A DNA stretch of 32,233 nt from a virus. This document shows, in pieces, positions 16,385 through 32,233 of the stretch. Each line of letters begins with the position of its first letter. The first letter of the stretch is position 1. The stretch is from IMG/VR virus record IMGVR_UViG_3300025759_000396, positions 1 through 32,233 of that record. One strand, 5' to 3'. Position numbers and translations under genes: made by a program. The notes under the pieces are model-generated. The model saw nothing but the letters and a program-made list of their open reading frames with translations, did no database searches and was not told where the DNA came from.

Positions 16385-16798
16385 ATGAAAAACAAATTCA
16401 AAAAATCGCATGGCGGTAGAGAAAAATATGTCTCTATTAAATATAAAAAAGATGAGACTAATGATTGTGCTATAAGAGCTGTAGCTCATTTTTTAAATTG
16501 GGATTATGAATATGTTAGAAATAAGATATTTAAACTTGCATCCGAATTATACAGAATGCCTAATGATGATTTAGTTATAGAAACATTCTTAAACGATAGG
16601 AAATTTAAAAGACAAAGCCCACTAAAAAGTCGTGGTAATAAAAAATATAAGATTGGTAATTTTCCATTAAATGGTACTTATCTTATTAGATGCAGTAGGC
16701 ATTGGACTTGCTTAAAAGACGGAGTGGTGATTGATACTTGGGACTGCAGAGAATGGGCAGCTCAATCATTCTATAGCTTTAATGAAGGAGACAAGTAA
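16385..16798 (+). CDS. Papain-like cysteine-peptidase-fold protein, first early gene
   Basis: This protein is 137 residues long. The start at 16385 is supported by AAGGAG 8 bases upstream. Motifs fit a compact papain-like fold: NDCAIRAVAHFLNWDYEYVR with candidate nucleophile C28 at a helix N-terminus, SRHW with H106, and DTWD with D117/D120. The pattern recalls small phage C39-like or transglutaminase-like proteins (NDC...GHW...DTWD). It could be a protease, deamidase or similar modifier. As the first gene behind the first early promoter, it is a candidate for modifying host proteins. Catalysis is inferred from motif order only. Confidence 0.7.
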   Translation: MKNKFKKSHGGREKYVSIKYKKDETNDCAIRAVAHFLNWDYEYVRNKIFKLASELYRMPNDDLVIETFLNDRKFKRQSPLKSRGNKKYKIGNFPLNGTYLIRCSRHWTCLKDGVVIDTWDCREWAAQSFYSFNEGDK

Positions 16799-16799
16799 T

Positions 16800-17306
16800 A
16801 TGAATATATTTTTTTTAGATAAAGATCCAAAAGCGTCAGCGGATCTAATGCACAATAAACATGTAGTAAAAATGATATTAGAATCAGCTCAGATGCTTTG
16901 TACTGCTTTTCATGAGTTAGGCTATAGCGGAGATATACCATACAAAAAAGCATACGTAAATCATCCGATGACTATATGGACTAGGACAACTGGCGGTAAC
17001 TTTAATTGGCTTATAAAACACGCTAAACGCTTATGTAAAATATATACTAAGCAATATAATAGAGTGCATAAAACTGAGGCTGTAATAGATTGGTGCGATG
17101 CTAATAAAAAAGATCTAAGCATTTTTATTGATAATAGATTAGATAAAACTATACCGCCTAAGTGTATGCCTAATCAACATAAAATAGATGGAGACACTAT
17201 AACTGACGTTGTACACTCTTATCTTAATTACTATGTAATGACTAAAATAAAAGAAGATTCTAGTTGGGGTTATAGAGAGAAACCAAACTTTTTTTATCTT
17301 TTTTAA
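16800..17306 (+). CDS. Conserved phage protein, sometimes annotated as pyrimidine-dimer-glycosylase-like
   Basis: I start at ATG 16800, 11 bases after AAGGAG; the longer in-frame version lies inside the previous gene. The 168-residue protein begins MNIFFLDKDP and contains HNKHVVKMILESAQML, NHPMTIWTRTTGGNFNWL and a C-terminal YLNYYV...W..R.KPNFF. I recognise this pattern from a family widespread in marine and T4-like phages, often named putative pyrimidine dimer DNA glycosylase. The biochemical basis of that name is uncertain. It is co-transcribed with the papain-like gene. Confidence 0.6.
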   Translation: MNIFFLDKDPKASADLMHNKHVVKMILESAQMLCTAFHELGYSGDIPYKKAYVNHPMTIWTRTTGGNFNWLIKHAKRLCKIYTKQYNRVHKTEAVIDWCDANKKDLSIFIDNRLDKTIPPKCMPNQHKIDGDTITDVVHSYLNYYVMTKIKEDSSWGYREKPNFFYLF

Positions 17307-21150: not shown

Positions 21151-21364
21151 CTTACTTTTATTTGATATAGCTCCACCTGAAAAGGATGGGGAGTTGCAGA
21201 ATACAGAAGTTGAGTTTTTAATTGTAGCTTTTGAAGAAAATAATAAAAAAGAGTTTATTAAAATGCTTGAATATTTATGCGATACTATGAATATAGAAGT
21301 TTACGCTGATTTATTATTTAAAATTATAAAGGAGAAGTATGAAGAAAATAGAACTGGATTATAA
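21143..21364 (+). CDS. Small acidic protein preceding the DNA-modification pair
   Basis: This 73-residue acidic protein begins MDDLLLFDIAPPEKDGE, then a strand EVEFLIVAFEENN and helices KEFIKMLEYLCDTMNIEVYA and LLFKIIKEKYEE. GAGGAG precedes it, and it overlaps the oxygenase gene by 26 bases, so it is translationally coupled to the modification cassette. I do not recognise the family; an accessory role is plausible. Confidence 0.65.
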   Translation: MDDLLLFDIAPPEKDGELQNTEVEFLIVAFEENNKKEFIKMLEYLCDTMNIEVYADLLFKIIKEKYEENRTGL

Positions 21365-22241
21365 ATTAAATAAATATGACTGCAAACAATTACTTGGAAC
21401 GTTTGCTAAAAATTCTGATTTTGATACTATAATAGACTTTAATTGCTCTGCTTACAATAAACTAGGTCAGCCTGTTTTATTTTTTATTAAAAACTATATA
21501 AACGCTGATAATTTAGAGAATGCTTATAGATCTATGCTAAAAGCAGCAAAACCTACTCAAAACAGAGGTGCGGCAAGCGGAGGAGAAAGAAAGCAAACGC
21601 TAAAAAAAGATGGTACATTATCTAAAATAACTATTACTTACGATAAAGAAACTGGGGATATAGTAAAACCATTGAGTGGTATAGCTGGATATTTCGATAG
21701 ATCCGCTCATTATGATTTTTGCAGAACTACCGCATTCAATAAAAAAAACTTAGATGATTTTAATCAGGCTTTGCCACTTATAAAAGAAGTAGACAGAGGA
21801 TTTAAAGAGTTTGTTCCTGATAGATATAGAAAACAAAAAGAAATGATAAAAGCTACAGACCCAAATTATAGAATAGCTGATACAGCTTTTACTACTATTA
21901 CTGTAAATAGAGATTATAGAACCGCTTATCATTATGACGCTGGTGATTATCCGAAGGGTTTTGGCAATTTAGTTGCATATTGTAAAAACATTGAGCCGAT
22001 GTATTTAGTTTTACCAAGATATGGAGTGGGGGTTCATTTAGATACTAACGATTTATTATTATTAGACGTTCACGAGCTTCATGGAAATACTGAATTTATT
22101 CCTAACGGATTAGATTCTGTTAGACTTTCTTTTGTTATGTATTACAGGGAAAATATGTGGAGGTGTTTATCGCCAAAAGAGGAGCTAAAGAGAATACAAT
22201 TAAATCAAAGGATAGTTGCAAAAAAATATTTAGAAGGATAA
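21339..22241 (+). CDS. TET/JBP-type 2-oxoglutarate/Fe(II) dioxygenase acting on DNA bases
   Basis: The 300-residue protein has a double-stranded beta-helix C-terminus with the facial triad and 2OG-binding Arg. These are YRTAYHYDAGD (H198, D200), DVHELHGNTEF (H245/H248, the HGN histidine being the likelier ligand) and DSVRLSFVMYY (R262). The surrounding FTTITVNRDYRTAYHYDAGD and the HGN motif are characteristic of the TET/JBP family, which hydroxylates 5-methylcytosine or thymine in DNA. No cytosine methyltransferase is seen here, which favours thymine as substrate, giving 5-hydroxymethyluracil. AAGGAG precedes ATG 21339. The kinase gene follows after two bases. Confidence 0.82.
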   Translation: MKKIELDYKLNKYDCKQLLGTFAKNSDFDTIIDFNCSAYNKLGQPVLFFIKNYINADNLENAYRSMLKAAKPTQNRGAASGGERKQTLKKDGTLSKITITYDKETGDIVKPLSGIAGYFDRSAHYDFCRTTAFNKKNLDDFNQALPLIKEVDRGFKEFVPDRYRKQKEMIKATDPNYRIADTAFTTITVNRDYRTAYHYDAGDYPKGFGNLVAYCKNIEPMYLVLPRYGVGVHLDTNDLLLLDVHELHGNTEFIPNGLDSVRLSFVMYYRENMWRCLSPKEELKRIQLNQRIVAKKYLEG

Positions 22242-22243
22242 AA

Positions 22244-22801
22244 ATGATGAGAGTTAATTTAATTGGCGGTGTTCCAGCTACTGGAAAAAGTTTTTTAATG
22301 AAAAAAATAAAAAAAGAATTGAAAATAAATTATTTTTTCGAAAAAAATATTTTAAGAGGTTATTCAGATAAAAATAAAAAAAATTATATATTCGGTATAT
22401 ATAACAACGATTTATTTGATGGAACCGACAAATTAAGTATGGCTGTACAACCGAAAGCTATAGAATTTATAAAAGAAAATAATTTTAAATCTATATTTAT
22501 AGAAGGAGACAGGTTATTTAGAAAAAGTTTTATAAACAATATAAAAAATTTAGTAGATCTTAATATTTATATATTAAACGTAAATGAAGAAGAATTAAAA
22601 AACAGACATATAAAAAGAAAAGATGAACAAACTAAAAGTTGGTTAAACGCTAAAAAAACGACTATAAACAATATAAAAAGTAATTATTCGGTACATGTAT
22701 TAAATAACGAGAAAGCCTCAGACGTAATTAAAAATATTAACTATATAATAGAAAATAAAAACGCTAATTTAAAAAAACCTACTCAAGTTAGTTTGTTTTA
22801 A
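22244..22801 (+). CDS. P-loop kinase, candidate 5-hydroxymethyluracil DNA kinase, with C-terminal clamp-binding-like QVSLF
   Basis: I start at ATG 22244 (GAAGGA upstream); a longer in-frame start at 22157 lies inside the oxygenase gene. The 185-residue protein has Walker A GGVPATGKS (8-16), a strand with SIFIEGDRLFRK carrying the expected acidic residue, and a basic lid NRHIKRKDEQTKSW. This small kinase form is known from phage DNA-hypermodification clusters, where it phosphorylates 5-hydroxymethyluracil in DNA. Direct pairing with a TET/JBP oxygenase supports that role. The last five residues, QVSLF, resemble the bacterial sliding-clamp motif (QLSLF type). A terminator follows. Confidence 0.75.
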   Translation: MMRVNLIGGVPATGKSFLMKKIKKELKINYFFEKNILRGYSDKNKKNYIFGIYNNDLFDGTDKLSMAVQPKAIEFIKENNFKSIFIEGDRLFRKSFINNIKNLVDLNIYILNVNEEELKNRHIKRKDEQTKSWLNAKKTTINNIKSNYSVHVLNNEKASDVIKNINYIIENKNANLKKPTQVSLF

Positions 22802-30952: not shown

Positions 30953-31297
30953 ATGGCAGATATACACACTTATTCAGTACAAGAGGCATTAAATACAACA
31001 GTAGGCGGAGAATGGACAGTGGCTTCAGCTGGTACAGCAGGATCTAGTGCGGCAGTAACAAACTCAACTCATCAAATATTAAAAGCATCTTCAGGAACTA
31101 TCGGAGTTTATAGTGCGGTTGAGATCTATTTTAACTTTAGTGCATCGCAAACAGATGTAAATGCATCAAACGATTTATTAATACCAAAAAATACATTAAC
31201 GTTTATAACGATTCCAAGAGGCTTGGGCAATACGATCTATTTCAATTATAACTCAACCTCAACTACAACTGGAGCGGTTAGGATAGTAGAATGCTAA
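30953..31297 (+). CDS. Beta-rich structural protein, possible decoration or fibre-base protein
   Basis: The 114-residue protein (MADIHTYSVQEALNTTVGGEW...) is Thr/Ser-rich and beta-predicted, with LTFITIPRGLGNTIYFNY near its end. Small proteins of this composition often decorate capsids or sit at fibre bases. It is coupled to the tail fibre by an ATGCTAA overlap (31291-31297), favouring a fibre link. Function is inferred. Confidence 0.6.
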   Translation: MADIHTYSVQEALNTTVGGEWTVASAGTAGSSAAVTNSTHQILKASSGTIGVYSAVEIYFNFSASQTDVNASNDLLIPKNTLTFITIPRGLGNTIYFNYNSTSTTTGAVRIVEC

Positions 31298-32233
31298 AAT
31301 CAATGATAAGTAATGTAAGTGCTGGTTTAGCTAGTGGTGGGACAGTAGATGGCGATTTAACTATTACTGGAGATTTTAAAGTTGAAGGTGCTGGTAGTTT
31401 TGCTTATGATGAGATACTTGAAGGCAGTCTAAATGTAGAAACTAGCATTAATGGTGTATTAGCAACTTTTAATCAAACTCACGCATCAGGACTTGGTATG
31501 CTTATAAAAGCTACTGGAACTGGTTCATCTGAATATTTATTAAAACTACAAGGTAATGCTGGTAGCACAGAAGCAATGTTTGTAGGTAAAAATGGCAAAG
31601 TTGGAATTGGGATTACATCTGATATTGACCACGAATTAGATGTTGAGGGCGATATAAGAATTAGAAATGCAATACATTCTTTTGCTACAAATGATAGAGC
31701 ATATACAAGAGAGTGGTTAGCATTTAATGAAGGCAGTCCAACTTACAAAACAAGTGCAGATTATAAATTTCATAAATTTCAAAATGTTAGTGGTACAACT
31801 ATCATGGTTGTAGGAGGTTCTAACAATCGAGTCGGCATCGGCACATCCTCGCCTAGTTATAATTTAGACATTCGAAACGCTGGTCTAACTGAGGCACAAA
31901 TAAAAGCATCATCAAGCGGTAGAGCAAGATTAAGATTAGATGCTTATTCAGATATACCCGAAATATATTTCTCTGTAAGTGGTACAAGAAAATCATCAAT
32001 ATTCCAAAGTTCAAATGGAAACAACTTAGGTATTTTTGGTTTTACAAATCAGAATACAATACTTAGTGCTGACCTTGCAAATGATAGGATTGGGATTGGC
32101 ACAGAATCGCCTCAAGGTAATTTATCAATTACTGCATCTTCAAATCCTTTACTTACTATAACAGAAACAACTTCAGGAACTGGAGCATCAGGCGGTATAG
32201 CATTTAGTAATCAGACTGAGTCAACTTATAGAA
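31291..32233 (+). CDS. Tail fibre N-terminal part (3' truncated by window end)
   Basis: The ATG at 31291 overlaps the previous stop. 314 codons are present. The N-terminus is MLKSMISNVSAGLASGGTVD, then fibre repeats with VGIGITSD, VGIGTSSPSYNLDI and IGIGTESPQGNLSI, the same motif family as the partial gene at position 1. The frame at the last base (one base into a codon) continues exactly with the frame at base 1 (two bases completing ACC, Thr). So the two are likely one gene interrupted by the contig ends. The N-terminus should attach the fibre to the virion. Confidence 0.85.
   Translation, partial: MLKSMISNVSAGLASGGTVDGDLTITGDFKVEGAGSFAYDEILEGSLNVETSINGVLATFNQTHASGLGMLIKATGTGSSEYLLKLQGNAGSTEAMFVGKNGKVGIGITSDIDHELDVEGDIRIRNAIHSFATNDRAYTREWLAFNEGSPTYKTSADYKFHKFQNVSGTTIMVVGGSNNRVGIGTSSPSYNLDIRNAGLTEAQIKASSSGRARLRLDAYSDIPEIYFSVSGTRKSSIFQSSNGNNLGIFGFTNQNTILSADLANDRIGIGTESPQGNLSITASSNPLLTITETTSGTGASGGIAFSNQTESTYR

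Follow-up and report, generated by a model that had tools for sequence, protein, structure and literature searches.

A candidate two-gene hypermodification cassette, TET/JBP oxygenase plus P-loop kinase, in a small tailed phage

The window, i.e. the whole stretch of DNA analysed (a record of 32,233 bases), contains two neighbouring genes on the plus strand which were assigned to the TET/JBP oxygenases and to the P-loop DNA-base-type kinases (Table 1). A preceding sequence-only reading had described the pair as a TET/JBP protein with H198, D200, H248 and R262, followed two bases later by a P-loop kinase with GGVPATGKS and EGDRLF, and genes, residues and motifs were indeed located as stated. Exactly two bases separate the TET stop codon from the kinase ATG, and the position of the likely ribosome-binding site AGAAGGAT within the 3' end of the TET gene suggests that the translation of both genes may be coupled.

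Table 1. Features of the oxygenase/kinase locus (positions refer to the window).
Feature	Position	Strand	Basis
TET/JBP 2-oxoglutarate/Fe(II) oxygenase, 300 aa	21339..22241	+	PF12851, E 3.3e-19
TET residues: Fe ligands H198, D200, H248; 2OG-binding R262	21339..22241	+	
Likely kinase ribosome-binding site AGAAGGAT, within the 3' end of TET	22232..22239	+	sequence, inference
Junction; ADDT or ADDT-like gene here in close relatives, absent in the window	22242..22249	.	blastn
P-loop DNA-base-type kinase (Ploopntkinase3), 185 aa	ATG 22244, stop 22801	+	PF18751, E 8.1e-9

The oxygenase matched the Pfam family Tet_JBP with 69.1 bits (curated cut-off 34.9), covering positions 2-164 of the 164 profile positions. 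Two concerns had been raised with the earlier assignment, namely a loss of the catalytic triad and a better fit to the prolyl hydroxylase/AlkB clade. Alignments with 10 close and 20 diverse homologues revealed that H198, D200, H248, G249 and R262 are invariant, and a profile of the phage TET relatives, run against 177,635 PDB sequences, matched human TET2 (E 1.2e-4) as the only related family and neither AlkB nor a prolyl hydroxylase. The PDB search with the single TET sequence gave chance matches only, and the predicted structure, with a pLDDT of 39, was too poor for use. Judged by its profile, the product is closer to TET than to the AlkB/prolyl hydroxylases. The gene is under purifying selection (dN/dS about 0.09, window vs the nearest relative, L001).

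The kinase scored 35.7 bits against Ploopntkinase3 (Pfam cut-off 27) and matched the PHROG family phrog_800 with E 4.7e-14. Its Walker A motif (GxPxxGK) and EGDR are intact, P11, G14, K15, D62, E87-G-D-R90, R121, R125 and Q129 are invariant in an alignment of 19 kinases, and the predicted structure (pLDDT 81) adopts a nucleotide-kinase-like fold. With the kinase as tblastn query, only the kinases of Cr30, Melnitz and of Mycobacterium and Microbacterium phages were retrieved. The label of phrog_800, 'terminase small subunit', was rejected: its annotated kinase members in Mycobacterium phages are neighbours of the terminase gene and otherwise carry the name adenylate kinase, and the label looks like a misannotation which has spread to several RefSeq phage records.

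Regarding the genome as a whole, the tail-fibre ORF (1305 aa) continues in frame across the ends of the record (31291 to 2975, i.e. 31291-32233 plus 1-2975) and the record is therefore probably a complete genome opened within the tail-fibre gene, either circular or permuted; no terminal repeat was found in the 32,233 bases. The window represents a small marine-type tailed phage, which furthermore encodes a tape-measure protein, a terminase, a major head protein and calcineurin-like/exonuclease-type, resolvase-like and Pyr_excise-like proteins as well as many small ORFs lacking an assignment. Apart from the calcineurin-like/exonuclease-type, resolvase-like and Pyr_excise-like proteins, no DNA polymerase or nucleotide-metabolism gene was recognised in the window, and a search of bacterial genomes yielded no clue to a prophage or host. 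That the phage carries neither a cytosine methyltransferase nor a nucleotide-pool hydroxymethylase, as claimed from the sequence before, holds for the whole record, in which neither the C5-cytosine methyltransferase (PF00145) nor the thymidylate-synthase (TS)-type dUMP hydroxymethylase (PF00303) was matched. The same is true for later enzymes: neither an amino acid:DNA transferase (ADDT) nor a TET-associated glycosyltransferase (TAGT) was found in the entire record. This gene inventory fits a modification that would be made on the DNA after replication. As a separate observation, a PF03013 gene (pyrimidine-dimer glycosylase-like, phrog_624) is located at 16731-17306 of the window, and such genes also occur near the TET cassettes of L003, L031, L054, L056, L137, L143, L151, L153, L156 and L167; the protein might edit or read modified bases.

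Comparison with related loci revealed what is special about the pair. An ADDT gene adjoins the kinase in 66 of 73 distinct kinase relatives and a TET gene is present in the locus of 61 of the 73, in a set that includes loci fetched with TET as query. Restricted to the 39 loci that extend 2.5 kb or more in each direction, TET is present throughout (39/39), and ADDT in 36, i.e. in all but the window, Melnitz and Acadian. The nearest relative, L001 (TET identity 92%), contains a 371-aa ADDT-like protein exactly between TET and kinase. Its match to PF18724 is weak (E 0.0022 in the protein search, below the cut-off; 5.5e-6 in the genome search) and it is 20-23% identical to other ADDTs, which illustrates how diverse this family is. 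In a blastn comparison the aligned blocks of the window abut at 22248/22249, where L001 has 1024 bp more, and no remnant of this insert is left in the window. ADDT likewise lies between TET and kinase in L004 and L031, and L005-L007 contain, besides ADDT, a further PLP-enzyme-like gene with a weak match of the D-cysteine desulfhydrase type. This PLP-enzyme-like family, phrog_3650 (L005:5340-6446, L007:6906-8012, L011:570-1514, L015:4503-5447), is linked to the TET-ADDT-kinase cassette and may act as a tailoring enzyme. Consequently, the pair of the window is a reduced variant of a known and widespread hypermodification cassette and not a separate pathway, and the earlier description as a minimal, little-described pathway has to be modified; while the kind of cassette is known, its transferase-free two-gene form is new.

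The two-gene layout was observed in the window, in L002, which originates from another metagenome and is protein-identical to the window over the overlap, in the diverged L030 (TET 67%, kinase 48% identity) and perhaps in L066, a short contig. On the TET tree the window pairs with L001 inside ADDT-bearing neighbours, and L030 pairs with L003, which carries a glycosyltransferase instead. Because both group apart, the tree suggests that the two-gene layout likely arose at least two separate times. Within the cassette, recent recombination is indicated by sequence identity, since the kinases of L001 (7921-8490) and L004 (8024-8581) are 96% identical while their TETs share only 74% (ADDTs about 22%). 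For the window, loss of ADDT is the simpler reading compared to the gain of an ADDT-free kinase.

Such a loss could mean that the cassette is a decaying remnant on its way out whose kinase is no longer useful, in line with the rarity of ADDT-free kinases (7/73) and with the clean, local loss relative to L001. We nevertheless regard this as improbable: the kinase retains all invariant residues and evolves with a dN/dS of 0.08-0.15, it has accumulated 14 window-only changes vs 9 on the ADDT-bearing branch, its split from L001 is deep (dS about 1.5), and both a second sample and the diverged L030 show the two-gene layout as well. The kinase is under purifying selection and therefore still does something useful.

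Downstream of TET, modules are exchanged frequently. In L003, L009, L013, P12024L and HTVC112P a TAGT glycosyltransferase and/or an FkbM-type methyltransferase replace kinase and ADDT, and the switch between both module types requires nine changes on the TET tree, seven of them forced by well-supported branches. Such exchanges would be expected if the hydroxymethyl handle made by TET served both module types. P12024L has a sister phage on the same host, P12024S, which has no TET annotated and contains other genes at the corresponding place. In L009, L013 and L003, where TET and TAGT are sometimes accompanied by the FkbM methyltransferase, no C5-methyltransferase was detected, and glycosylated, base-J-like 5-hydroxymethyluracil (5hmU) is possible in these phages.

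In order to judge the substrate, thymine and cytosine have to be weighed against each other. The sequence-only reading had proposed the route from T via 5hmU to phosphomethyl-U. Among 39 TET-bearing records searched over their whole length, a PF00145 methyltransferase was detected in three, namely Melnitz, the L015 contig and a contig of 235 kb in which no kinase was detected; many of these records are fragments, for which a single absence is weak, but several are longer than 100 kb, and the Cr30 genome is complete. As only two of the 28 kinase-bearing records (Melnitz and L015) contain the methyltransferase, thymine appears to be the likelier, parsimonious substrate of the window TET. A TS-family enzyme occurred in one of 25 records tested, Cr30, and this is an ordinary-looking TS. 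The TET-bearing phage DLP6, which lacks a C5-methyltransferase, has DNA listed as resistant to restriction enzymes (PMC8228603). Alternatively, a host enzyme or an unrecognised phage methyltransferase could provide 5-methylcytosine (5mC), which TET would oxidise to 5hmC and the kinase convert into 5-phosphomethylcytosine. Phage TETs tested so far reportedly oxidise 5mC (Burke et al. 2021, cited in PMC12730594), and 5mC may be host-made; Melnitz encodes an HhaI-like C5-methyltransferase directly upstream of TET and kinase, and L015 a 213-aa C5-methyltransferase-like gene two genes upstream of TET. However, the match in L015 is confined to model positions 1-87 of 324, the TET of Melnitz lies very far from the others on a long branch of the TET tree, and the methyltransferase is missing from the window and from 26 of the 28 kinase-bearing records. 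With respect to these results the cytosine route seems rather unlikely, and thymine, as in the earlier proposal, stands as the best guess, with 5mC as the less likely substrate.

Restriction-site statistics were considered as a readout of the modified base. GC-only palindromes are strongly underrepresented in the window (9 observed vs about 109 expected), with GGCC and CCGG absent and GCGC and CGCG strongly depleted. Since the depletion is equal in phages without TET, i.e. in P12024S (no TET annotated) and the pelagiphages HTVC010P and HTVC011P, site avoidance was rejected as such a readout and lends no support to either base; it is likely caused by host restriction or bias. GATC avoidance varies among the phages with TET and kinase.

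Taken together, we favour, with a probability of roughly 0.6, a reduced two-gene hypermodification cassette in which TET oxidises a pyrimidine in DNA and the kinase phosphorylates the product, likely protecting the phage DNA. The phage genome would first be replicated with normal nucleotides. The oxygenase would then hydroxylate a DNA pyrimidine at its 5-methyl group, with thymine as the likeliest target, yielding 5hmU. By analogy to the M6-type phages, the kinase would phosphorylate the hydroxymethyl group to give 5-phosphomethyluracil. In these phages the phosphate is added to the hydroxymethyl group by the 5-hydroxymethyldeoxyuridine (5hmdU) DNA kinase and can then be displaced by a transferase (PMC6449724); the purified M6 kinase phosphorylates 5hmdU in DNA (unpublished result quoted in PMC6449724). 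In most relatives of the window an ADDT-type transferase would then displace the phosphate with an amino acid. Because the ADDT gene is missing in the window, the end product would be either the phosphomethyl base itself or the product of an unrecognised transferase. The likely role of the modification would be protection of the phage DNA from host restriction.

Both possible end products deserve consideration. A transfer step by an unrecognised window gene, a co-infecting phage or a host enzyme, giving an amino-acid- or sugar-substituted base, is a serious though not the favoured possibility. The many small unassigned ORFs leave room for such a gene, and so does the diversity of the ADDTs, of which even the L001 copy falls below the Pfam cut-off. 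On the other hand, profiles which recognise this very copy had no match in the window record, and in the early region (16.3-24.3 kb) none of the unassigned ORFs has a length of about 300-400 aa. The more specific proposal, that the pathway ends at 5-phosphomethyl-U made wholly on DNA from thymine, so that a base carrying a negatively charged phosphate would be the functional modification of the finished genome, is put forward only tentatively; on this proposal a phage TET would use thymine as its substrate, as JBP does. We know of no report of a 5-phosphomethyl-pyrimidine as an end product.

The window thus presents, in pared-down form, a pathway for DNA camouflage known from phages, and its possible end product would be unusual. 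A phage ancestry is assumed for the JBP enzymes, and to our knowledge no phage TET has been shown to act on thymine. The clade combining TET and kinase, in which a C5-methyltransferase is almost never present, is well suited for studying thymine oxidation by a phage TET, and a two-gene phage would reveal if a phosphate by itself is of use as the last modification.

Among the known systems, the clusters of TET/JBP, aGPT-Pplase2/ADDT and 5hmU kinase combine the same oxygenase and kinase families as the window, which differs in lacking the transferase/pyrophosphorylase-type gene. Such clusters were predicted by Iyer et al. 2013, as far as cited in PMC6449724; a TET-like/aGPT-Pplase2/5hmU-kinase set in Rhodococcus phage Tonitrus was annotated in 2025 as thymidine hypermodification (PMC11955845), and the cultured, complete Caulobacter phage Cr30 contains TET, ADDT and kinase and no C5-methyltransferase. 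The thymidine hypermodification of M6, ViI and phiW-14 (PMC6449724) would share with the window that a kinase acts on a 5-hydroxymethyl pyrimidine within DNA; there, however, 5hmdU is supplied via the nucleotide pool (5hmdUTP) before kinase and transferases act, whereas the window has no TS-type hydroxymethylase and its TET would work on the DNA itself. Phage C5-cytosine hypermodification (Burke et al. 2021) would resemble the window in that the pathway begins with TET on DNA and that the downstream tailoring enzymes are swappable, but combines TET with a C5-methyltransferase and glycosyltransferases, in place of which the window has a kinase. Finally, in the base J pathway of kinetoplastids (JBP1/2 and JGT) the likeness is that a TET/JBP enzyme would oxidise thymine in DNA, with phosphorylation instead of glucosylation in the window, and in phage instead of nuclear DNA.
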